This document shows, piece after piece, positions 1,858 to 13,382 of a DNA stretch of 64,000 bases (position 1 is the first letter of the stretch; every line of letters begins with the position of its first letter). This stretch comes from Corallococcus macrosporus (lineage in GTDB: Bacteria; Myxococcota; Myxococcia; Myxococcales; Myxococcaceae): positions 310,001 through 374,000 of the forward strand of contig NZ_JAFIMU010000010.1 in NCBI RefSeq assembly GCF_017302985.1. The letters are read 5' to 3'. The notes under the pieces are model-generated. The model saw only the letters and a program-made list of their open reading frames with translations. It ran no database searches and was not told the origin of the DNA. The translations under genes were made by a program, and so were the position numbers.

Positions 1858-2430
1858 TCACCTCCGCCCGCCGCGCGCCTGCGCCCACAGCGCGGCCAGC
1901 AGCGACTCCGTGCCCACCTGAACTTCGACCGTGCCCGGAGTGCCCGGCGCATCGCCGCTCGACGACGCGACGTCACGGGCCCGGACGAGCACACCCGTCA
2001 CAAGCCTTCCGAGCCCCGCGTGAAACGACGCTGGCTCGCGACTCCCCGTGTCCACCCACTCCACCTCGTAGTCGCGCATGCCCTGCGGCGTCCTCGCGCG
2101 CACACGCGTCCCCGGACGCAGCGCGCCCTGGTGCACAGCGGGCACGGTGAAGAACAGCCGTGTCCGCGCTTCACTCGCGGGCCGCGCGTCCAGCGACGGA
2201 CGCATGGGCGCGCCCTGGGACAAAGCCACCACCCCTGGGACGCTCACCACGTGGGCCACCGGCACGCGCGCCGCGAAGAGCCCCAGGCCCGCGAGCGCGA
2301 GCCCCAGCGGCAATGGCAGCCAGCGCACCCAACCCGGATGCTCCAGCTTCACCCGCTCCGCGACGGCCCCTCGCGCGTGGCGCTCCAGGGCCTCGCGCCG
2401 GAAGGGCGTGCTGCCTCCGTCAGCGGCCAT
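1858..2430 (-). CDS. short HlyD-like secretion accessory protein of the lanthipeptide cluster
   Basis: 190 residues. The N-terminal part (FRREALERHARG, then one membrane helix at about 37-57) resembles the start of HlyD-type membrane fusion proteins that work with C39 ABC exporters. The end (RLVTGVLVRARDV, then GTVEVQVGTESLLAALW) resembles the C-terminal beta segment of that family. The long coiled coil and lipoyl-like hairpin between these parts are missing, so it is about half the usual 400 residues. It overlaps the lanC gene by 11 bases and lies 3 bases before the exporter gene, so it is translationally coupled with the export module. Likely role: periplasmic adaptor of the exporter. It could also be a membrane anchor with no efflux role. 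Assignment rests on the ends and context only. Confidence 0.7.
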   Translation of the reverse strand: MAADGGSTPFRREALERHARGAVAERVKLEHPGWVRWLPLPLGLALAGLGLFAARVPVAHVVSVPGVVALSQGAPMRPSLDARPASEARTRLFFTVPAVHQGALRPGTRVRARTPQGMRDYEVEWVDTGSREPASFHAGLGRLVTGVLVRARDVASSSGDAPGTPGTVEVQVGTESLLAALWAQARGGRR

Positions 2431-3733
2431 GCCACGACTCCAGCGGCGGGCGGAACGAGGCGAGCAGCATCCGGTCCCACGCGGGCTCCTCGTCGCTGAT
2501 GGCCGCCAGCAACGCGAGCGCGATGCCCACCGAGCCCGTCAGGAAGCTGGCGTTGTCCTCCACCCGATCCGGGTAGACCTCGCGAGGGAACCACACCGAG
2601 TAGCCACCGACGCCCTCCCCCGGCACGCGCCGCGCCAGGAGCCGCGCGAAGCACTCGCGCGCCTCGCGGCCGAAGGCCTCTTCCCCCGTCATCCGGTACA
2701 TGCGGTGGAACAGGTGCGCGAGCCCCGCCTCGCCGTGGCACAGCCCGCCGTCCATCACGTCGCGCGTCTCCTCGGGCCGGCGCACCGCGCGCAGGCCCGT
2801 CTCCACCGCCACCTGCTCCCACTCCGCGTTGCCCACCGCCCGCGCGGCCATCAGCAGCGTCGCGGCCACGCCCGGATCCCCGTAGCACCACGCCCCTCGC
2901 GACACCTGGGAGCGCCGCACCTCGTCGTCCGCGTAGTAGGCGAAGGCGGACAGCGAGCTCGCGGGCTGCCGCTGCGCGAGCAACCATCGCACCGCCTCCT
3001 CCAGCGCGGGACCCACCCGAGCCCGGTCGATGCCATGCGCCCACGCGGCCGCCAGCAGGCCCACCACGCCCGGATTGCCGTGGGCCACGCCCAGGTTGTA
3101 GCCGCCGTCCTGCTGCTTCTTGCGGGTGGACGTGGGGATGAGCTCCGCGGGGGTCCGCCACGCCCGTCCCTGCGGCCCCAGCTCCGACATGGCCAGCAGG
3201 TGGTGGACGACGCGCTCCAGGCACCGGCGCGCCCGCGCTCCCGGCAGCCGCTCCAGCGCGAAGACCCCCAGCCCCACCAGCCCGGCGATGAGGTCATAGT
3301 GCTGCCCCCAGGACTCGACGCCCAGGGCCGCCTCCAGCGCCGCCTCCACGTCCTCCAGCGGGTCGTCCTCCGTGCCCAGCGCATCCGGCAGCAGGTGCGC
3401 GCCCAGGTGGTGCGTCACCCACGCGACCTGGACGAAGCCGCCATGCAGCGCCGGGCGCATCCACTGGCGTCCCGCCTCCTCCAGCGCCCCGTCCAGGAAG
3501 CGCGAGGCGTGCTCCGGGTCCTCCCCTCCGGGCCACACGCGCGCCAGGTAGCCGTGCAGCAGGGCCTGGCTGGCCAGCCGCTCCGCCATGCGCGCGCCCT
3601 TGTGGGTGAAGGGCTTGTGCAGCTCGGTGGTGATGGCACGCACCGTCTCCGCGGCCTGATCCGCCAGCGAGCCGGAGAGCAGCGGCCACCCCCGGGGCGC
3701 CTCCTGAGAAGAACGGGCGGAATGGGCCATCAT
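2420..3733 (-). CDS. lanC: LanC-like lanthionine cyclase
   Basis: 437 residues, the usual size of LanC. Alpha-toroid repeats carry the family glycine motifs. The zinc ligands are visible as Cys in WCYGDPG (about 281) and Cys-His in LCHGEAG (about 331-332). The motif HGNPGVVGLL, typical of the family, lies near 215. Family role: zinc-activated addition of Cys thiols to dehydroalanine or dehydrobutyrine, forming (methyl)lanthionine rings on the leader-bound precursor in the cytoplasm. Its ATGA start overlaps the LanB stop by 4 bases, and it overlaps the HlyD-like gene downstream by 11 bases, so lanB, lanC and the export genes form one coupled operon. All catalytic residues are present, so it should be active. 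Confidence 0.95.
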   Translation of the reverse strand: MMAHSARSSQEAPRGWPLLSGSLADQAAETVRAITTELHKPFTHKGARMAERLASQALLHGYLARVWPGGEDPEHASRFLDGALEEAGRQWMRPALHGGFVQVAWVTHHLGAHLLPDALGTEDDPLEDVEAALEAALGVESWGQHYDLIAGLVGLGVFALERLPGARARRCLERVVHHLLAMSELGPQGRAWRTPAELIPTSTRKKQQDGGYNLGVAHGNPGVVGLLAAAWAHGIDRARVGPALEEAVRWLLAQRQPASSLSAFAYYADDEVRRSQVSRGAWCYGDPGVAATLLMAARAVGNAEWEQVAVETGLRAVRRPEETRDVMDGGLCHGEAGLAHLFHRMYRMTGEEAFGREARECFARLLARRVPGEGVGGYSVWFPREVYPDRVEDNASFLTGSVGIALALLAAISDEEPAWDRMLLASFRPPLESWHGR

Positions 3734-6700
3734 GAGCGCTGCTCCTTGGCGCGGGCGCGCGCGAGCTGGGACTGGTACGTCCGGGCGAGGAAGTCGTAGA
3801 GCACCAGCTCCTGCGCGCGCGCCGCCGAGCGCAGCATCCGGTTGGCGTGCATGTGCAGGAGGGTGCCCGCCAGGGCCATCAGGGACACACCGAGCCGGCC
3901 CTCGCGCGAAGCCGCCTCCAGGCGCCGCCGCACGGGGACCAGCCGCTCCGAGCGCTCATGCAGCACGGCGAGCCCCTCGACGAGCAACGGGTTCGCCTCC
4001 GCGTCCGGAGTCCACGCCGCCTCCAGCCCCGCGCGGGCCTGGCGGTAGCGGGCCCCGAGCTGGTGCGTGAAGGCCGTGTCCATGTGGAACTCCCGCCCGA
4101 AGTAGTCGCGGGAGCGCTCGGCCACCGTCAGCTTCGCGCGCGGGTCCAGGCCCAGGTCGTCCAGCAGCAGGTCCAGGCCGCGCAGGGTGAGCTGCCACCG
4201 GGCCTCGGCGCCCGCGTCGCCGTCCAGCAGCGCCATCAGCTTCAGCACCGCCTCGCTGTCCGCGTGGAACAGCTCCTCGGCCAGGGTCATGCCCTCGGGG
4301 CCGCCGTAGCGCTCCAGCTCGCGCTCGTACGTGTCGAGCTGCACCTTCCACACCACGCCGTCCCGCGCCAGCGGCGCCACCGCGGCGGACAGCGCGGGCA
4401 AGGCGTCGCGGTGCAGGCGGGCCGGATCTCCATGCAGCCGCAGACGCACGTGCCAGTCCGGGTCCTCGAAGCGGATGAAGAACCAGCGGTCCACCACGCC
4501 CTCGCGAACCAGCCGCTCCATCAGCGGCGCCACCGCGTCGCACAGCACGTCGTCCGCGCCGGCGGTGCCCGCGTACAGCTTCGCGTAGAGCCACTCCGAG
4601 CCGGGCGCGAAGTGCCGGGGCGCACCGGCGGCGGGAATCGAGCGCGGGGCCAACGTGGAGGCCGTGGGCTCCTGACGCCGCACCATGGGGAGGAACAGCT
4701 CGTGGACGAAGCGCCCCTCCGGGCCGTAGGCGCACAGCGCGTCCGGCCCGACGAGCTGCTCGCGCAGCACGGCGCGGCCGCTGTCCTTCACCAGGGACGC
4801 GAGCGTCTCCACACACAGGACGCTGTCCAGGTCCAGCGGCAGCACGTTGTCGCCATTCACCAGCGCCACGTGGCGCGGCAGGCCCAGCCGCTCGCGAAGC
4901 TGCTGCACGGCCCGGAAGCACTCCTCGCCGCGCGCCGCGCCCAGCGGCTTGAGCACGTCCGGCCCCAGCCGCCACCTCGCCAATGCCAGCACCACCCGGC
5001 CGGACGTCACCCGTGGCAGGAAGTCCAGGCCCTCCAGCGCGCCCCAGCTCCACGACAGGCCCACCGCGCGCCCCTCGTGCTGGAGCATGCACAGGAAGCG
5101 GTAGACGCCCAGCCCCCGGGAGAAGTTGTGCGCGGTGGTGAGCCGCGGCAGCACCTCGCGGCCCAGCCGCTTCGAGCGCAGCACCACGCGCCCCTCCACC
5201 ACCGACACGCGCAGGTCCTCCACCGGAATCTGCCCGGCCCCGGGCGCACCGGAGGCCCCCAGGAAGGGAATCTCGTGCCCGCGCAGTTGGGGCCGCAGCA
5301 GCACGTTGCCGATGCGTCCCTCCGGCAGGTGCACCACCTCCGCGAAGACGGCGTCCGGGCGAAGCGCCTCCTCGGCGCGCAGGTGCCGCTCCACCGCTTC
5401 GCGCAGCGCCTCGTCCCCATGACAGAAGCGGCCCAGGGTGTTGGCGCCGGAGGGCCCGCCCGCGCCGCGCAGCACCAGCGAGAAGTCCCCGCGCGCCAAG
5501 GCCTCGTCCGAGGCGGCCATCACGCTGAAGCCCACGGAGAGGGCATCCGGCGCAGGCGCGGCCTTCTCCGAGGACAGCGCCTTCAGGTCCTCCTCGCCCA
5601 GCGTCAGCACGCGAGCCCCAGGACTCGCGGTCAGCCTGCGCATCAGGTGCAGTTCGCGCGCGCCGAACGTCCCTCCGCCTTCCGTCGACGCGGGGAAGGC
5701 CAGCCCGCGCAGCAGCGGCGCCCCATCCGCGGCGGGCGCGTTGGACACCTGGAAGCCCACGCCGGACTCCTCGTCGAGCGCCTCCAGCAGCGGCACCTCG
5801 CGGCCCTCGTAGCGGCGGGTGAAGGCCTCGCAGAAGGCGCTCAGCGCCGAGCGGCCCGCTGGAGGCCCCATGCGCCGCACGAGCTCCACCGCGCGCGTCA
5901 CCTCCGCCAGCACCTCCGGGCCCAGCGTGGCTCCGGGCGCCGGACGGTAGAGGTCCACCTGGAAGAGGCGCGGGAGCTCCACCTTCACGGGGAGCGCCTC
6001 CAGCCGCGTGGCGATGGCGAGGTAGGCCTCCTTCGACCGGCCGGGGCCCTCCGCGTCCAGCCTCGCGAGCTGTCCTCCGACGTCATCCAGGCACGTGGCC
6101 GCCTCCAGCGCCACCCGCGCGGCCTCGGCGGGGCCCGCGTCCTGCGCCAGCACGCGCAGCCGCTCCACCAGGTACGGGAGCGGCTCCGGCCCGGTGACGG
6201 GCACGGCCAGCTCCGGCACCAGCAGGTCGTTGTCCACGAGGGACCGCACGTATTCAGCGGCCTCCTGCGCATCCACCTCCGCGTCCAGCGCCACCAGCGT
6301 CCGCACCAACTGGTCCGGTCGTGCCCCTTCGCGTGCATGCTCCAGGACCGCGTTCAGGTACGCATCCGGCCGCACCGAGGACAGGTGGTGCCGGCGCACC
6401 GCGCCCACGTGCCGCGTCTCCACGTAGCGAAGCCGCCCGGCCGCGCGATACAGGCTGCCATTGGGGCGGTAGCGGAGCACGTCACGCAGGGCCGGGTGGC
6501 GCACCAGCGCCCCTACCAGCCGCGTGAGGTAGTCCATGTCCAGACGGGTGTCGCGCTGGCACCCGCGCGCGTCCGCCACCTCCAGGTGCGTGCGCGCTCC
6601 CAGGTGCCCCACGGAGCACGACGCGAAGAGGCCGAAGGGCGTGCAGCGCCCCGCCATGCGCAGGAAGTAGCGCACCAGGGCCCGCTCCACCTTGAGGCCA

Positions 6701-6990
6701 TACTCGCTGTCAGGCGCCTGGAGCCAGAGCGGCAGCCCCTCCTCCAGCGAGGGCGACGCGACGAAGAGGGCCTCGCGCACCTCCGGCCGCTCCACGTACG
6801 CGCGCAGCCGCGTGCGCAACAGCGTCCGGTCCGCGTCCAGCGCCTTTGAGAGGGATTGCGGTTCGTGCGGCGCGGTGAGCTGTGCACTCCACTGCTCCAC
6901 TGCGTCGAAGGGCAGCAGCGGCGTGCGCAGCACGAAGAAGTCCGCCGGTTCCATCTGGGATGGGGCGGGAGCGCGGCGGGGCTGGGACAT
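3730..6990 (-). CDS. lanB: class I lanthipeptide dehydratase, full length with fused elimination domain
   Basis: About 1086 residues from the ATG at 6990, which has AGAGG 10 bases upstream. An in-frame ATG at 7014 lacks such a site. The N-terminal part (DFFVLRTPLLPFDAVEQW onward) matches the LanB glutamylation domain. From about residue 800 (WLYAKLYAGTAGADDVL, then RWFFIRFEDPDWHVRLRLHG) it matches the SpaB_C elimination domain also found as stand-alone thiopeptide proteins. Family reaction: glutamyl-tRNA-dependent glutamylation of Ser/Thr in the core peptide, then glutamate elimination to dehydro-amino acids. The fused architecture is the NisB type, not the split thiopeptide type. It sits between the precursor gene and lanC. 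An intergenic hairpin at 7025-7052 separates it from the precursor gene and may lower its expression relative to the peptide. Confidence 0.95.
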   Translation of the reverse strand: MSQPRRAPAPSQMEPADFFVLRTPLLPFDAVEQWSAQLTAPHEPQSLSKALDADRTLLRTRLRAYVERPEVREALFVASPSLEEGLPLWLQAPDSEYGLKVERALVRYFLRMAGRCTPFGLFASCSVGHLGARTHLEVADARGCQRDTRLDMDYLTRLVGALVRHPALRDVLRYRPNGSLYRAAGRLRYVETRHVGAVRRHHLSSVRPDAYLNAVLEHAREGARPDQLVRTLVALDAEVDAQEAAEYVRSLVDNDLLVPELAVPVTGPEPLPYLVERLRVLAQDAGPAEAARVALEAATCLDDVGGQLARLDAEGPGRSKEAYLAIATRLEALPVKVELPRLFQVDLYRPAPGATLGPEVLAEVTRAVELVRRMGPPAGRSALSAFCEAFTRRYEGREVPLLEALDEESGVGFQVSNAPAADGAPLLRGLAFPASTEGGGTFGARELHLMRRLTASPGARVLTLGEEDLKALSSEKAAPAPDALSVGFSVMAASDEALARGDFSLVLRGAGGPSGANTLGRFCHGDEALREAVERHLRAEEALRPDAVFAEVVHLPEGRIGNVLLRPQLRGHEIPFLGASGAPGAGQIPVEDLRVSVVEGRVVLRSKRLGREVLPRLTTAHNFSRGLGVYRFLCMLQHEGRAVGLSWSWGALEGLDFLPRVTSGRVVLALARWRLGPDVLKPLGAARGEECFRAVQQLRERLGLPRHVALVNGDNVLPLDLDSVLCVETLASLVKDSGRAVLREQLVGPDALCAYGPEGRFVHELFLPMVRRQEPTASTLAPRSIPAAGAPRHFAPGSEWLYAKLYAGTAGADDVLCDAVAPLMERLVREGVVDRWFFIRFEDPDWHVRLRLHGDPARLHRDALPALSAAVAPLARDGVVWKVQLDTYERELERYGGPEGMTLAEELFHADSEAVLKLMALLDGDAGAEARWQLTLRGLDLLLDDLGLDPRAKLTVAERSRDYFGREFHMDTAFTHQLGARYRQARAGLEAAWTPDAEANPLLVEGLAVLHERSERLVPVRRRLEAASREGRLGVSLMALAGTLLHMHANRMLRSAARAQELVLYDFLARTYQSQLARARAKEQRS

Positions 6991-7024
6991 CGCGACGGAC
7001 CTCTCGAACCGCATGCGGGAAGAA

Positions 7025-7052
7025 CCCCGGGCCGATGCTCGCCGGCCCGGGG
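7025..7052 (-). terminator. attenuator-type hairpin between precursor gene and lanB
   Basis: CCCCGGGCCG and CGGCCCGGGG form a perfect 10-bp stem with an 8-base loop. It lies between the precursor stop (7112) and the lanB start (6990). No U-run follows, so full termination is doubtful. Position and strength fit partial read-through or RNA protection, as commonly seen between lanA and lanB. Confidence 0.65.
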
Positions 7053-7111
7053 CAATGGCTCACCCTGCGCCGGAGGCGGACCTCACCTCCGAGCGCACGG
7101 CGCGCAGCACA

Positions 7112-7306
7112 TCAGTAGCAGCAGGTGAAGTACTCCTGCGTCTGGCAGGCCGCGTTCGTGTAGCAAACGGTGGCCTCCGTCGGGTCCGTGCCGTCGCAGT
7201 CGTAGACGGAGGGCGGGATGCCACCGGCAACCTGCTTCAGCTCGGTCTCGTTCAGCGCGCGGAGGGTGTCCTTCGACAGCGTCAGCTTCTTGGAGGGCTT
7301 CTTCAT
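7112..7306 (-). CDS. lanA: lanthipeptide precursor with double-glycine leader
   Basis: 64 residues, with GAGGAA 6 bases before the ATG. The leader is 29 residues: a Lys-rich start, then LTLSKDTLRALNETEL, the hydrophobic/Leu motif typical of class I leaders, ending in VAGG, the C39 peptidase site. The 35-residue core has five Cys (core positions 8, 19, 25, 33, 34), one Ser (4) and six Thr (11, 14, 17, 21, 27, 32). It also has four Tyr and one Phe, several acidic residues and no Lys or Arg. Ser4/Cys8 and Thr21/Cys25 are spaced as four-residue rings, and the end is CCY. Located just upstream of lanB, lanC and lanT. The acidic core does not resemble nisin-type cationic pores, so its activity is not predictable. 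Confidence 0.93.
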   Translation of the reverse strand: MKKPSKKLTLSKDTLRALNETELKQVAGGIPPSVYDCDGTDPTEATVCYTNAACQTQEYFTCCY

Positions 7307-7405
7307 GTTTCGTTCCTCGGGGGTCAGGCCGTACGAAATTGCACGGTCGAAACGAAATACGAAGGCGTCCTGAATTTCTGGTCGTCGTCTGCTTTTGATC
7401 CCTTC

Positions 7406-8890
7406 TCAATGCGCCGCGTCCCGCGGGGGCAGCCACGTGAGCGCATTGCGCGTCCACAGCTTGCGGAAGAGGGCAACGAGCTTCGCGCGCTCCTCGCGGG
7501 TGTGCATCTCGTTGGCGTCCGCGATCTCCCCGATGCTCGCGGTGCCGTCCGCGAGCCCGAGCAGCTCCCGCTCCATGTCGCTGGCGCCGCGCCCGATGGG
7601 CAGCAGGAAGCGGGTCGGATCCACACCGGTGGCGCGCTCCAGACTCCGCGCGGTGGGGCTCTCCAGCAGGTGCGGGTGCACCCACGCGCGGCTCCAGGAC
7701 CCCACCGCCAGCGGACGCAACGACTCCACGCGCTCGGGCGGCACGTCCGCGCGCAGCACCTGGAGGAGGGGCTCCAGGTTGAGCAGGGCCCGCGCCAGCG
7801 GCGGCGCCATGCCCGCGGGCACCGGCGCGCCCGCCATCGCGCGCACCGCGAACACGGCGGTGGCGATGGACACCATCACCCCCGCGTTGGAGGCGCCCAC
7901 GTGCAGCGGCCCCCCGGCCAGACGCACGCGGCGGCGTCCCTCGAAGACGAGCGGCCACAGGTCCGGTCGCGACTCCACGGCCAGGCGCTCCTGATCCGCC
8001 GCGGTCCCCGCCGGGTGCGCCTGCTTCGCCTCCTCCAGGCTGACGGACCCGCTCAGCCTGCGCGCCTCCTCGTGCGTCAGCACCCGCGCGCGCGTGAGCA
8101 GCTCCAGCACGTGCGGGGACAGGCGCGCGCCGCACGCGGCCACCAGCACGTCGCACGGCAGGTGACGCGTCTCGCCGTCCTCCTGGTACGTGACGCCGTC
8201 GTGGATCACGTGCACCGCGCGGACGTTTGGCACCAGCCGCGAGCCCGTGGCCTCCATCAACCGCTCGAAGTGCGGCAGCCGGTGAAGGCCCCGCGCCTCG
8301 CCGCGCATCAGCAGCGTCACCGGCTGGCCCGCCATCATCAGCGTGCCGGCCTGCTCGAAGCCGGAGATGCCGCCGCCCAGCACCGCCACGCGCCGGCCGG
8401 CCACCTCCGCCGCGGAGCGCAGCCCCTCCCGCACCTCCACGCGCGAGCCGGGCTCCACCGCGTCCGGAGGCAGGGGCCGCCGCTCATACCAGGCGGTGAC
8501 GAGCACCTGCTCGGCGCGCACTTCGCAAAGGCCCTCGGGCGTCTCCACCACCACCGTGACGCCGTCCGCGTCCGGGCGCAGGTCCACGCAGCGGTGGCGG
8601 CAGCGGATGTCCAGGCGCCCCAGCTGGATGACGCGTGCGTAGTAGTGCAGCACGTCCTCGCGCGAGCACTCCAACGCGTCGCGGCAGTCCAATGGCAGCC
8701 CTCCCACCTCCCAGTGCGAGGCGGGCGACAGGTAGACGAGGCCCTCGATGTGGGCCTGCAGCGAGGCCAGGGGGGTGGCGCCGGCCTCCAGGGCCAGGGC
8801 GGGGATGCCTCGCTCCCGGGCCTCGAAGAGGGCCGCCACCGCGGTGGGCCCGCCGCCAATGACACACAGCATCGTCGTCAGGTTCGTCAT
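7406..8890 (-). CDS. FAD/NAD(P)-binding oxidoreductase with C-terminal winged-helix-like domain, lanthipeptide cluster
   Basis: About 494 residues from ATG 8890; a GTG lies 6 bases further out. The N-terminal dinucleotide-binding motif is CVIGGGPTAVAAL. A second, VLGGGISGFEQAG near residue 170, makes it a two-nucleotide flavoprotein of the lysine/ornithine or FMO-like monooxygenase superfamily. The last 80 residues (LLGLADGTASIGEIA, then LVALFRKLWTRNALTWLPP) look like the small winged-helix domain found at the end of many RiPP enzymes and JmjC-like proteins. That domain could bind the leader. The gene is on the same strand as the precursor, ending 99 bases upstream of it, so it may be the first gene of the operon. 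Proposed role: oxidative tailoring of the lanthipeptide (inference). The substrate is unknown. Confidence 0.8.
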   Translation of the reverse strand: MTNLTTMLCVIGGGPTAVAALFEARERGIPALALEAGATPLASLQAHIEGLVYLSPASHWEVGGLPLDCRDALECSREDVLHYYARVIQLGRLDIRCRHRCVDLRPDADGVTVVVETPEGLCEVRAEQVLVTAWYERRPLPPDAVEPGSRVEVREGLRSAAEVAGRRVAVLGGGISGFEQAGTLMMAGQPVTLLMRGEARGLHRLPHFERLMEATGSRLVPNVRAVHVIHDGVTYQEDGETRHLPCDVLVAACGARLSPHVLELLTRARVLTHEEARRLSGSVSLEEAKQAHPAGTAADQERLAVESRPDLWPLVFEGRRRVRLAGGPLHVGASNAGVMVSIATAVFAVRAMAGAPVPAGMAPPLARALLNLEPLLQVLRADVPPERVESLRPLAVGSWSRAWVHPHLLESPTARSLERATGVDPTRFLLPIGRGASDMERELLGLADGTASIGEIADANEMHTREERAKLVALFRKLWTRNALTWLPPRDAAH

Positions 8891-9011
8891 GCGCACGTCA
8901 ACCTATACGCTCCGCGGATGCGCCAGTGGCACGGCCCCCTTGAAAAGAATCGAGCCAGGGTGGCCGCCTCGCTGCGTATGCGACGTGGACAACCGGTGAG
9001 CGGGGAATCGC

Positions 9012-10247
9012 ATGCGCATCTTCCAGGACATGGGAAGGCTCCTCCAGGAGCGGTGGCTGAAAGCCCAGCACAGCGAGGAGGCCTTCCCCGACATCGCGGC
9101 CGAGGTGCTGCGCGAGCTGGCCCCGCATCAGGCGTTCCAGACGCTGGAGCCGCTGGAGTGGCTTTACGGGACGCGCGACTTCCCGAAGCAGCTCACCACG
9201 CGGCCGGGCTTTGGCCAGCCCGCGCTGACGGTGTTCTCCGACTCCCGCCTGCTCATCGACCTGTACTACTGGGTGGACGGCACCACCGACATCCACCAGC
9301 ACGGCTTCTGTGGCGCCTTCCAGGTGCTCCAGGGCAGCAGCATCCACGGGCACTACCGCTGGCACGAGCGGAACAAGGTGAACAGCCGCGTCGCGTTCGG
9401 CGACATGGAGCTGTTGTCGGTGACGGGGCTCTTCAAGGGCGACATCCAGCGCATCCTTGGGGGAGACCGGTACATCCACTCCCTGTTCCACCTGGAGCGG
9501 CCATCGGTGACGTGCGTGGTGCGCACGCTGCACTCGCCGGAAGGGGGCTACCAGTACTCGTACAAGAAGCCCCACCTGGCCTACTACCCGGGCGTCGAGG
9601 ACGCGCACACCAGCAAGGTGCTCCAGTCCCTGTCGCTGCTGGCGGAGCTGAAGCCCCCGGAGCGCACGCGGCTCATCTCCGGCCTCATCGAGCGCTCGGA
9701 CATCCTGACGTGCTTCCTCGTCTTCGAGCGGCTGCTCCAGTTGCACAAGAAGCTGGAGGCGCTGGACCCGTACTGGGACGTGGCGGTGCGCGCGCATGGC
9801 GGGCTGGCGGAGGAGCTGCGCCCGGTGTTCAAGGAGTACATGCGCCAGGCGCTGCTCATCGACCGGCGGGGACAGGTGAAGGACCCGGAGCACCGCTACT
9901 TCCTCGCGCTGCTCTTGAACGTCGAGCGCGGCGAGCACATCCAGCAACTGGTGCGTCAGCGCTTCCCGGACCGGGACCCGGTGGAGCTGATCATGAAGTG
10001 GGTCACCGCGCTGACGCAGCCGGTGGAAGCCGGGGGCCGCGCGCGAGACTCACTGGGGGTGCCGCTGGACGAGTCCGCCCTCATCGTCTTCCGCGAGCTG
10101 CTCCACTCCCGTGGCCACGCGGAGGTGATGGCCCGCCTGAAGGAGTCCTTCGACGACGCGGAGGTGGAAGGCCAGTCGGACGACATCGCCGCGCTGGCGG
10201 CCTCCCTGCGCGAGTCCACGCTGTTCCAGCCCCTCTTCCGGCGCTGA
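9012..10247 (+). CDS. cupin-like protein of unknown function, divergent from the lanthipeptide operon
   Basis: 411 residues, cytoplasmic, no signal. Around residues 85-105 the segment LYYWVDGTTDIHQHGFCGAF followed by QVLQGSSIHGHYRW resembles a cupin first motif (two His, with Gln where Glu is usual). IHSLFHLERPSVTCVVRTL near 155 resembles the second motif with one His. Together these could bind one metal ion, as in cysteine dioxygenase-like cupins. The alpha-helical C-terminal 240 residues match nothing I recognise. It shares a 121-bp divergent intergenic region with the flavoprotein at 7406-8890. That suggests a role in the lanthipeptide cluster, as a modification enzyme or self-protection factor. 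The cupin assignment is by motif only. Confidence 0.7.
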   Translation: MRIFQDMGRLLQERWLKAQHSEEAFPDIAAEVLRELAPHQAFQTLEPLEWLYGTRDFPKQLTTRPGFGQPALTVFSDSRLLIDLYYWVDGTTDIHQHGFCGAFQVLQGSSIHGHYRWHERNKVNSRVAFGDMELLSVTGLFKGDIQRILGGDRYIHSLFHLERPSVTCVVRTLHSPEGGYQYSYKKPHLAYYPGVEDAHTSKVLQSLSLLAELKPPERTRLISGLIERSDILTCFLVFERLLQLHKKLEALDPYWDVAVRAHGGLAEELRPVFKEYMRQALLIDRRGQVKDPEHRYFLALLLNVERGEHIQQLVRQRFPDRDPVELIMKWVTALTQPVEAGGRARDSLGVPLDESALIVFRELLHSRGHAEVMARLKESFDDAEVEGQSDDIAALAASLRESTLFQPLFRR

Positions 10248-10358
10248 GCGGGCCCGGGCGCGGCATTCGCGAAAAAGAATGCAAAAGAATTCCGAAGGGT
10301 CCTTCCCTGGGGAAACAGCGGTCCGCACCCGCGCGGCCCGTTTCCACCAGGAGCCTTC

Positions 10359-10826
10359 ATGTTCCGCGTTCCGACCCTGTGCCTCTGCCTCCTTGCCTCG
10401 CTCGCCATCGCCGACGAGTCCTCCTCGAAGCCCGCCCGGCTCACGGTGGCCCAGAAGAACGGCTGGGCCACGTACGACGCGGAGCTGAAGAAGAAGGAGG
10501 ACGCGGTCAACAAGGCCTGCGGGTCGTCGGTGAAGAGCAGCTACGACCGGTCCACCTACCCCGCCTTCGACCCGATGAAGGACCGGACCCAGAGCGCCTG
10601 CCAGATGGCCGTGGGCACCCTGGTGGAGGTCTGCGGCACCGCGGATGGCAAGGCGGCGGTGAAGGAGACCGTGAAGAAGACGGTCTGCCGCCTGTCGACG
10701 GAGGGCACCAAGGTCTCGCTCGATGGCAGCGTGATGACCATCTACATCGACCCGGAGAACACCTCCATCACGGGCAAGCAGCCCGGGAGCTACAGCTGGA
10801 AGAGCGCCTACGAAGAGGTGCTGTAG
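10359..10826 (+). CDS. small secreted protein, function unknown
   Basis: 155 residues with CAGGAG 6 bases before the ATG. A signal peptide spans about residues 1-18 (MFRVPTLCLCLLASLAIA). The mature part is Lys-rich with four Cys, which could form two disulfides, and a helical start (NGWATYDAELKKKEDAVNKAC). No family recognised. It stands alone between the cupin-like gene and the convergent STAS-like gene. Confidence 0.75.
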   Translation: MFRVPTLCLCLLASLAIADESSSKPARLTVAQKNGWATYDAELKKKEDAVNKACGSSVKSSYDRSTYPAFDPMKDRTQSACQMAVGTLVEVCGTADGKAAVKETVKKTVCRLSTEGTKVSLDGSVMTIYIDPENTSITGKQPGSYSWKSAYEEVL

Positions 10827-10847
10827 CCAGGGCCTCGGGCCGGGCCG

Positions 10848-11273
10848 CTACCGTCGCGCCTGGGTGCGAGCAATCATCGCGCCCACCGGGACACCGGCCT
10901 GCTCGAACCGGACCGCGGCGCGCTCCAGCGCCTCGGCCAGCGACGCGACCTCTTCATGTTGATCCGCGGCGGGCCGGACGAAGCTGGTGACGGCCCTCGC
11001 GAGCCTGGCGGTGGTCGAGTTGACCACCACGAAGAATCCCTTGCAGTACTCGCGAGCCAGGTCGGCGACCTCGGTCTGATGATCCGCCAGCATCATCCGC
11101 TGTGAATGTGTCAGCGGACGGGAGCGGGAGAAATCAATCACCAGGACATAGGGCTCGCGTCGCTTGATGAGCCGGGTCAGGCTTTGAAGGATGCTCGCCA
11201 TCTCCTGGTCCGTCGTGGTGTCGCTGCGCTGGACGATGACCAGGGGCCAGAGTGATTCGTCGAGGATGTACAT
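10848..11273 (-). CDS. STAS/SpoIIAA-like single-domain protein
   Basis: 141 residues, no signal and no membrane segment. The pattern of strand, helix, then a buried strand (YVLVIDFSRSRPLT), helix, strand (CKGFFVVVNSTTARLARAV), helix resembles the alpha/beta STAS fold of anti-sigma antagonists and of SpoIIAA-like proteins. The conserved Ser of anti-anti-sigma factors (DxSG) is not present: the loop reads DFSRS. It is convergent with the small secreted protein, with a 21-base gap, and nothing on its strand is close. Role not assigned. Confidence 0.6.
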   Translation of the reverse strand: MYILDESLWPLVIVQRSDTTTDQEMASILQSLTRLIKRREPYVLVIDFSRSRPLTHSQRMMLADHQTEVADLAREYCKGFFVVVNSTTARLARAVTSFVRPAADQHEEVASLAEALERAAVRFEQAGVPVGAMIARTQARR

Positions 11274-11534
11274 AGGGGAGATGCTTCAACCGGCGAGGAC
11301 AGGGCCAAAGAGATGTAAGCCGGGAACGCGGAGCCGCGTCAGTGACCTCCGGTGAAACAAACAACACCCGGGTACTGGTGTGATCGAACGCCGGAAACGG
11401 TGTAGCGCGCGGACCTCAAGCTGTGGTGGACACTCCCCGCTCCGCCACGGCGCAGGAGCTTGGAAACCGCCTCCTGCACACTCCGAGCGTTAGCGTGAAT
11501 GGCCCATGGCATATGGCTTGCCAACGGGCTGCGC

Positions 11535-13382
11535 ATGCCTCATCGAAAGCTCCCTCCCCCAGGGCTGGCCACCGCGCGAGACGCGTGCGCGCTGCTGTGG
11601 CTCCTCCCCTTCCTTTTCTGCCTGGGCTGCTCCGGCAACATCGGGCCCGCGGGACACACTCCGAATGGCGGGGATGCCGGCTGCGTCGAGCCCCCGCCCG
11701 CGGATGGCTCCGACGCGGGCGTGCCGGCAGACGTGCTCATCCCCAGCCGCCTGCTGCGGCGCAGCGCGCTGGCGCTGAGAGGCGAGCCTCCGACGGATGA
11801 GGAGTACGCCGCGCTGGAGGCCGCCGGGAGCGAGGCGGCGCAGCGCGCCTACGTCTCCGCCTTCGTGGACCGGACGATCCAGGAGCCCACCTTCTACCGG
11901 ACGCTGTTCGAGACGGCGCGCGACTGGTTCAACATCCCGCCCGTGGGGCCAACGGCGGATCCGCCGGAGTATGGCCTGCAGCAGCAGCGCTCCATCGTCC
12001 GGTGCCCCGAGGGCACGCCGAAGGCGGGAGCGTGGAAGTACTTCCGCGACGACAAGGATGCCTGTCAGGGCCTGAAGCCGGATGGCACGCCCGCGGAGGA
12101 GCGCTCCCTTGAAGCGTGGTGGGCCCCGGGCGCCACGACGAGGCTGGTGGGCTTCGCGGCGAGCGTGTCGCCCACGGGGCAGAGCTACGACGCGAGCGGA
12201 TTCCCGGTGACGGTGAACTGCGCCACCGCGGGCCCCGTCGCGAACTGTGGCTGCGGGCCCGCCGCCGCGCGCTGCCACGCCGACACGGGGAGCTATCCGG
12301 GCTGGGAGGACTACGGGCTTCACAGTCCACAAGGGCAGCGGCGACTCGTCGCCGAGGAGCCCGCCCGACTGTTCGCGCACCTCGGCTGGCACGACCGGCC
12401 GATGACGGACCTCATCCTCGGCAACTACTCCGTGGGCCCCACGCGCCTGCAGGCCGCCTACGTCATGCAGGGCCTCGCCGGCGAGTTGACGTACCTGCTG
12501 GAGGACGACTCCTGGTGGAGACCGTCGCGCTTCGCCAGCGCACCGGTCGACCCCGACCACCGCCAGGGCGACCCCACGGCCTGGCGCGAGTACTCCGTGC
12601 CGGCCCGCAACCCCTTCTTCCTGGAGGAGCGGGACTACCGGTACGACCCGCGCACGCAGTCCACGGCCATGAAGGGCATCCCCGCCGCGGGCATGCTTAC
12701 CAGCCTCGGCTTCCTCAGCGCCTACCCCCGTGAGCGCGTGCGCGGCGCGCGGGCGCTGGAGATGCTGGCCTGCGAGGAGCTCTCCCCGCCGCAGGGGCAG
12801 GAGTTCAACGAGTACAAGCGGGACCCGGGCACGGAGGGGACCTGCCAGCACTGCCACCGACGGTTGGACCCCGCGGCCATCCACTTCAAGCGCTTCGCGA
12901 AGGTGGGGCACGGCTTCGAGGGCCACGGCGCGACCTACCCGATGCCGGGTGTGGGCAAGGTGTGGCACTGGCCCGCGCGGTGGCGCACCGGCGAGTACCC
13001 CTATCACTCGGACCCGTTCAGCCACTGGAACCGCTGGTACATGCCGGACACGCTGCTGACCCCCGTCACGCAGGCCCAGGCCGACGCGAATCCGGAGGCC
13101 GTCTTCATCGACTTCCTCCCGGCGGAGCACACCCTGCTGGGCCAGACGAGTGACGGGACGGTGGGGCCGCTGGGTTTCGCCAAGCTCATCGTCGCCTCGG
13201 GCTCGTTCGACCGGTGTGTCGTGCGGCACCTGCACGCGCAGGTGATGGGGCGGGACATCGACCCGGCGAAGGAGGCGGGCTACCTGGAGGACCAGGTGGC
13301 GCGCTTCATCTCCGGAGGCCGCAAGGTCCGCCCTTACGTCAAGTCACTCACGCAGTCCGACCTCTTCCAGAGGGGGCGCTGA
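11535..13382 (+). CDS. lipoprotein with single CXXCH motif, DUF1588-like
   Basis: About 615 residues from the ATG at 11535, which gives a normal lipoprotein signal ending LLPFLFCLGC. An ATG at 11499 would lengthen it by 12 residues. A Gly/Asp-rich linker follows the lipid-anchored Cys. Near residue 450, EGTCQHCHRRLDPAAIHFKRF holds a CXXCH motif followed by the RLDP and F pattern of DUF1588-type proteins, which accompany DUF1501 proteins in many bacteria. Covalent heme c is possible but needs only the motif to be claimed. First gene of a unit with 13384-14385 (1-base gap) and the DUF1501 gene. Probably an envelope complex of unknown substrate. Confidence 0.78.
   Translation: MPHRKLPPPGLATARDACALLWLLPFLFCLGCSGNIGPAGHTPNGGDAGCVEPPPADGSDAGVPADVLIPSRLLRRSALALRGEPPTDEEYAALEAAGSEAAQRAYVSAFVDRTIQEPTFYRTLFETARDWFNIPPVGPTADPPEYGLQQQRSIVRCPEGTPKAGAWKYFRDDKDACQGLKPDGTPAEERSLEAWWAPGATTRLVGFAASVSPTGQSYDASGFPVTVNCATAGPVANCGCGPAAARCHADTGSYPGWEDYGLHSPQGQRRLVAEEPARLFAHLGWHDRPMTDLILGNYSVGPTRLQAAYVMQGLAGELTYLLEDDSWWRPSRFASAPVDPDHRQGDPTAWREYSVPARNPFFLEERDYRYDPRTQSTAMKGIPAAGMLTSLGFLSAYPRERVRGARALEMLACEELSPPQGQEFNEYKRDPGTEGTCQHCHRRLDPAAIHFKRFAKVGHGFEGHGATYPMPGVGKVWHWPARWRTGEYPYHSDPFSHWNRWYMPDTLLTPVTQAQADANPEAVFIDFLPAEHTLLGQTSDGTVGPLGFAKLIVASGSFDRCVVRHLHAQVMGRDIDPAKEAGYLEDQVARFISGGRKVRPYVKSLTQSDLFQRGR

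Follow-up and report, generated by a model that had tools for sequence, protein, structure and literature searches.

Layout of a class I lanthipeptide cluster

We analysed a window of 64,000 nucleotides from Corallococcus macrosporus (contig NZ_JAFIMU010000010.1; host genome 9.8 Mb), which takes in a class I lanthipeptide cluster at its tailoring end, and focused on two divergent genes there: one for a flavoprotein (7409-8890, minus strand; two-Rossmann, Pyr_redox_3 E 2.9e-12) and one for a cupin protein of 411 residues (9012-10247, plus strand). Beyond the flavoprotein gene the minus strand carries a 64-residue class I lanthipeptide precursor (7112-7306; class I leader model NF038153, E 1e-9), the LanB dehydratase (3730-7014; Lant_dehydr_N/C, PF04738 E 7.1e-179 and PF14028 E 7.9e-70), the LanC cyclase (2420-3733; LANC_like, PF05147, E 1.1e-33), a 190-residue protein (1858-2430) and LanT, a C39 peptidase-ABC transporter (1-1854; PF03412, PF00664 and PF00005) whose gene extends past the window edge. 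The cupin gene alone runs the opposite way. In the precursor core, which follows GG, there are 5 Cys and 7 Ser/Thr, and the three components by which a class I cluster is recognised (leader-matched precursor, LanB and LanC) are all present as profile matches. The 190-residue protein, for which Pfam and NCBIfam gave no family match, is also kept in clusters L022 and L035 (L labels denote loci and G labels phylum genomes, G000 being the window's own).

The open reading frame of the flavoprotein spans 7406-8896 (minus strand; 496 codons from a GTG), and its likely start is at 8890, since both orthologues begin at an ATG equivalent to residue 3. The intergenic region is thus 121 bp long (8891-9011). 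The first-pass annotation, made from sequence alone, had placed a divergent cupin gene with an HQH motif beside a lanthipeptide precursor, and rightly so: the motif lies in IHQHGF at residues 94-99, and lanB, lanC and lanT adjoin. Of the promoter region that the two genes were said to share, the divergent geometry stands and no more than that, as a sigma-70 scan of 6900-10500 gave 0 promoter-like sites against 0.1 expected.

Fold and predicted metal site of the cupin protein

Overlooked in that annotation was the fold of the cupin protein, which in our models is that of the thiol dioxygenases. In an AlphaFold2 model with a mean predicted local distance difference test score (pLDDT) of 92.5, residues 1-194 (9012-9593, plus strand) are predicted to form a barrel of the cysteine dioxygenase (CDO) type with N-terminal helices. 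The best 50 of 1175 Foldseek rows were thiol dioxygenases or near relatives, as were the 50 matches listed by VIA (best Z 14.3), where we take structure 3eqe (YubC) to be thiol dioxygenase kin through its kinship with 4qm9. The best VIA match superposed on residues 1-194 with 2.8 Å over 163 residues, and the thiol dioxygenase superpositions among the matches listed ranged from 2.5 to 3.1 Å over 159-164 residues. Profile comparison agreed: in hhalign against 25 CDO_I sequences, drawn from genomes of the window's family, the cupin protein scored a probability of 82% (P 9.9e-6), with a real score of 40.7 compared to 19.6 for the best of 60 column shuffles. Searches of Pfam, NCBIfam and PDB by sequence with the cupin protein returned only weak PqqD and chance-level matches, and the CDO_I model (PF05995) matched 0 of the 64 family members aligned at E 0.1, placing them outside CDO_I as curated. 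The kinship became visible only by comparing folds and profiles. The protein is a member of a family, widespread and as yet without a name, that no Pfam or NCBIfam family covers, and for this family we regard the fold assignment as well supported.

All three CDO metal-site histidines were aligned in the profile comparison, which points to a predicted three-histidine iron site formed by H95 and H97 of H95-Q96-H97 (9294-9302, plus strand), opposite the HxH of CDO_I, and by H156 (9477-9479, plus strand), opposite the third CDO histidine. H95, H97, H156, H160, R171 and Q181 occur in 64/64 rows of the cupin alignment; the last four lie outside the patterns used in the search. The rows comprise 53 of the 60 loci found in a collection scan, described below, and 11 sequences from the window and the G genomes. 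L052, L053, L054 and L079 were left out as duplicate genomes and L090, L103 and L107 for want of a clean open reading frame; L024, L026 and three degenerate paralogues were also left out.

Ser, His and Tyr are the catalytic residues of CDO, and they align with T167, V169 and R171 of the cupin protein; R171 (9522-9524, plus strand) takes the place of the catalytic tyrosine in the profile alignment, and residue 169 is V, L, I or C in 64/64 rows. The Arg of the CDO YTR motif aligns near a position held by Q, D, E or N. Model and alignment thus suggest that the cupin protein resembles CDO in its fold and in the pattern of its metal site and lacks the substrate residues of CDO. Since neither Ser-His-Tyr nor the substrate-binding Arg is kept, it is not expected to act on free cysteine as CDO does.

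Small thiols and N-terminal cysteines are the main known substrates of thiol dioxygenases. Bacterial thiol dioxygenases (3-mercaptopropionate/cysteine dioxygenase; 4tlf, 4wvz, 4qma and 6xb9) are the closest to residues 1-194 among the matches listed (Z 14.3), and it is with their HxH and third His that the cupin histidines align through CDO_I, but identity is 14-17%, their Ser-His-Tyr and Arg are not kept, and the cupin protein has an added helical domain of 217 residues and a lanB neighbour. ADO and the plant cysteine oxidases, which act on N-terminal Cys of proteins, share the fold at lower scores (Z 10.3-11.3), but no Pfam match to enzymes of their kind was found in the 64 cupin members, and the extra domain is a different one.

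The added domain of the cupin protein, residues 195-411 (9594-10244, plus strand), is helical in the AlphaFold2 model. A PqqD-like signal covers residues 352-404 (NCBIfam PqqD, E 7e-4, 19.7 bits against a cut-off of 70), and hhalign of the domain against PqqD gave 4.7%, hardly over shuffles. In the strict sense the recognition element of ribosomally synthesised and post-translationally modified peptides (RiPPs) consists of three strands followed by three helices; the cupin tail, modelled with block pLDDT of 72-97 over residues 321-411, has only two single-residue bridges before its helices.

Gene neighbourhoods and separability of the two genes

The cupin protein gave a match in 15 of 195 genomes of the phylum Myxococcota, with a long copy in 13 (G168 and G190 hold fragments only). 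Calling lanB as an N-domain of more than 350 bits within 5 kb of the cupin gene, we found it in 9/13 long-copy genomes (G000, G010, G045, G048, G059, G062, G068, G070 and G076), with a chance proximity, within about 11 kb, of less than 1% per genome; in G061 and G063 the contig stops beside the cupin gene. Conversely, 10 of 67 lanB places above 350 bits had an intact cupin gene within 5 kb and one more had a broken copy. The phylum-wide counts for cupin, lanB and flavoprotein are lower bounds, as in many genomes only some first-look candidates were scored. The cupin gene therefore adjoins lanB in myxobacteria far above chance, and the linkage is strong. In a tree of the 64 rows, built by a quick search and with weak support at 20 of its 61 inner branches, lanB-linked cupins occupy three separate places, which requires 4 changes, at least 3 of them forced, be they gains or losses; the placement of L034 is unsure because of its long branch. 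LanC was found in L022, L024, L025, L027, L034 and L035.

An alignment of 14 relatives, used as query against the collection, gave 60 loci from several phyla, among them Acidobacteriota, Verrucomicrobiota and Pseudomonadota. In a Planctomycetaceae genome (L088, 1-6704) the cupin gene adjoins LanM and an NHLP-leader peptide, and in L028 (838-5894) it lies beside a lone Lant_dehydr_C gene and two genes for HpaB-type hydroxylases. A PqqD-like gene is near the cupin gene in 5 of 74 loci scanned (L061, L076, L089, L108 and L109). In L029 (6100-7353), L030 (5900-7183) and L031 (14493-15698) the gene beside lanB is an additional cupin paralogue with an incomplete HxH, and an intact copy is also present; the degenerate paralogues keep H156 in 3/3 and R171 in 2/3, but not H160 and Q181, and perhaps serve as a partner subunit.

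The flavoprotein, as first annotated, has two nucleotide-binding motifs of the GxGxxG/A kind, GGGPTA at residue 14 and GGGISG at residue 174. By its model and VIA, residues 3-356 resemble YpdA and flavin-containing monooxygenase (FMO)-type enzymes; the match with YpdA 7a76 reached Z 23.4 with 4.7 Å over 308 residues, for a model of mean pLDDT 60 built from 12 rows of which 9 were distant fragments. Although the bacillithiol disulfide reductase YpdA and ArsO/FMO-type monooxygenases are its best structural and profile neighbours, it scores far below their curated cut-offs. With 56.3 bits against 339.9 it falls outside the YpdA family, its GGGPTA presumably standing where YpdA has the active-site Cys. 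It lacks CxxC, and FxGxxxHxxx(Y/F), the FMO motif, is absent in 3/3 orthologues. It is probably an enzyme that uses NAD(P)H and FAD, YpdA/FMO-like in type.

The first annotation also gave the flavoprotein a winged-helix tail. From about residue 365 the model is of low confidence (block pLDDT 28-65) and without strands, too poor to decide this either way, and what stands is a weak match of about residues 436-461 (7514-7591, minus strand) to the PqqD profile in hhalign (42% over 26 columns, above 100/100 shuffles). The C-terminus alone had no Pfam or NCBIfam match at E 10, and a search of 142 genomes with the tail gave good matches only in the three orthologues, the next having E 0.001. Since the winged helices of transcription factors look much like the PqqD-like ones and are known to give rise to false positives (PMC12710340), the tail match is a lead only.

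True orthologues of the flavoprotein (88-89% identity) were found in 3/195 phylum genomes, the window's own included, and all in the same cluster; scoring in this search covered 8 of the roughly 40 first-look candidates in a genome, so that distant orthologues could be missed. Another 13 genomes gave weaker matches (best E 2.1e-8, 25-36% identity), which were set aside as generic Rossmann-fold kin, none extending past residue 265. The flanks of the 60 collection loci, often short, contained no flavoprotein match at 1e-3, a search of viral contigs gave nothing useful, and a plasmid search gave one record with 27% of the query covered. The expectation that homologues of both genes recur beside lan genes thus holds for the cupin gene and fails for the pair.

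Both genes are real and constrained, as judged from dN/dS against the G068 copies (0.29 for the flavoprotein and 0.17 for the cupin protein). For the flavoprotein, values were 0.27-0.29 over the whole gene and 0.36-0.45 in the tail, where constraint is weaker. The cluster of G068 carries both genes. In that of G059, the cupin gene is broken (L035, 9703-10062; about residues 1-54, 302-316 and 360-410 remain) and the flavoprotein is intact, from which we conclude that the two are separable and form no obligate unit; the flavoprotein would then be an optional redox enzyme of this lineage. A second cupin gene of G059 adjoins a second lanB. Over its 64 codons the precursor has a dN/dS of 1.08 between the window and G059 and of 0.21 between the window and G068, and this faster change in G059, from one comparison, is suggestive at most.

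Proposed role and alternatives

In the reading that we favour, at about even odds, the cupin protein would depend on iron and O2 and act on the LanB-processed peptide, most likely at cysteine sulfur. For it speak the modelled fold, the aligned histidines, the linkage to lanB, the LanM and lone Lant_dehydr_C neighbours in L088 and L028, the 5 Cys of the core and the purifying selection on both genes. Such an enzyme would bind iron through H95, H97 and H156 and use O2 to oxygenate a sulfur of the precursor peptide. The most likely target would be a cysteine thiol that is not, or not yet, in a ring, which would yield a sulfinate (+32 Da); another sulfur oxidation is less likely. The helical C-terminal domain may hold the peptide or a partner, and the flavoprotein may act on this peptide too, in an independent redox reaction that is not always needed, with its PqqD-like tail perhaps guiding it. 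Only tentatively, and with more doubt than belief, do we extend this to a new family of CDO-fold, peptide-directed thiol dioxygenases with a helical docking domain that would oxygenate cysteine sulfur in LanB-processed peptides. If true, a thiol dioxygenase branch repeatedly tied to peptide-dehydratase clusters would bring a new modification to RiPPs, and the cupin gene would be a searchable marker for unusual lanB clusters. It would also mean that RiPPs with sulfinate or other oxidised sulfur exist whose maker is an enzyme of a kind for which the literature searched gave no lanthipeptide example, and that this enzyme could be used to put oxidised sulfur onto chosen peptides.

In the open-access literature searched we found no thiol dioxygenase in lanthipeptide clusters, and nothing linking cysteine dioxygenase with RiPPs or cysteine sulfinic acid with lanthipeptides; the words cupin, flavin, FAD, dioxygenase, oxidoreductase and myxo are absent from PMC7470986. 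What PMC10783134 mentions is a Nif11-domain/cupin protein alongside an epimerase in Synechococcus clusters, and not a thiol dioxygenase with lanB. A parallel by description is SbzM, the cupin dioxygenase by which L-cysteine is oxidised on the way to SB-203208; like the role proposed here, it oxygenates cysteine sulfur in a natural-product pathway, but its substrate is free L-cysteine and no ribosomal-peptide cluster is involved (PMC6331615). For the flavoprotein, the statement that oxidative tailoring of this kind is not known in class I was too strong: in one survey, flavoprotein-family enzymes count among the most frequent enzymes of class I clusters, where they perform decarboxylation, halogenation and lanthionine sulfur oxidation, so that flavoprotein tailoring of class I lanthipeptides, sulfur oxidation included, is already in print (PMC7268733). 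The role proposed for the window's flavoprotein would be flavin tailoring like that of the LanD-type decarboxylases, halogenases and lanthionine S-oxidation enzymes listed there, but the protein differs from them in its two-Rossmann YpdA/FMO type and extra tail.

Several points weigh against sulfur oxygenation of a LanB-processed peptide. A fold alone proves no chemistry, and we infer the metal, O2 use, substrate and product of the cupin protein. The conservation of HxH was in part selected, as the pattern H[QE]H[GA]F[CSF]GAF, carried by 62/64 rows, was one of two used in the scan and the paralogues without H97 beside lanB in L029, L030 and L031 were excluded from the alignment; nor did Pfam and NCBIfam sequence searches of the 64 members give a CDO match. 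The same three loci have lanB, but no LanC was found there and the candidate precursors listed for them hold one Cys. The cupin copies of G047 and G075 have no lanB nearby, and G059 keeps lanBC, precursor and flavoprotein intact beside its broken cupin gene. Among the 60 collection loci, lanB or lanC profile matches occurred only in L053, L079 and L058 (weak), which are Corallococcus loci, and in L088, with both flanks longer than 9 kb in 27/60 and one flank shorter than 5 kb in 28/60. Finally, at 15 acidobacterial loci (among L055-L090) a nearby transporter reads by sequence as POT-type and may point to a substrate that is a small thiol or a dipeptide. The POT-like gene lies upstream of the cupin gene in 12 measured distances, and three inspected copies are on the opposite strand.

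The last points would be expected if the cupin protein oxidised a small free thiol, in housekeeping or stress, with lanB adjacency incidental or reflecting self-protection or thiol supply. Small thiols are the usual substrates of known thiol dioxygenases, few of the 60 collection loci show a lan gene in the flanks examined, and the POT-like transporter and the action of SbzM on L-cysteine (PMC6331615) fit as well. We nevertheless hold this unlikely, as lanB lies within 5 kb in 9/13 genomes at three places in the tree and the Ser-His-Tyr of CDO is absent. That absence can also be read as a sign of other chemistry, in which the three-histidine site would perform a non-sulfur reaction on the peptide, either a hydroxylation or a redox-neutral change; the replaced catalytic residues, the presence of R171 and Q181 in 64/64 rows and the one-Cys candidate precursors of some linked clusters agree with it. 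As the fold neighbours, among the matches listed, are sulfur dioxygenases, we consider it slightly less likely still.

Peptide sulfur oxygenation by the cupin protein alone, with the flavoprotein optional, also has to be set against the oxidative pair of the first-pass annotation, in its stricter form an obligate two-step unit. The genes are adjacent and divergent in G000 and G068 and both are constrained, but the flavoprotein is in 3/195 genomes against 13 with a long cupin gene, and in G059 it is intact beside a broken cupin gene (though this genome has another). The pairing is not supported by these comparisons, and an obligate pair is improbable. Least probable of all is a role as chaperone or docking partner of LanB with no catalysis, to which the copies without full HxH beside lanB in L029, L030 and L031 and the weak PqqD-like cupin tail would be suited, but which would leave H156, H160, R171 and Q181, present in 64/64 aligned members (the degenerate copies being outside the alignment), unaccounted for.

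Other genes accompany members of the cupin family. Between the cupin gene and lanB, L024 has a gene for a leucine-rich-repeat protein (10519-12363), and a gene in L025 (10397-12241) looks alike. Genes adjoining the cupin gene in L029 (12772-13947) and L096 (8691-9776) had no Pfam or NCBIfam match, and the product of the latter carries a motif that we read as 2-oxoglutarate-oxygenase-like.

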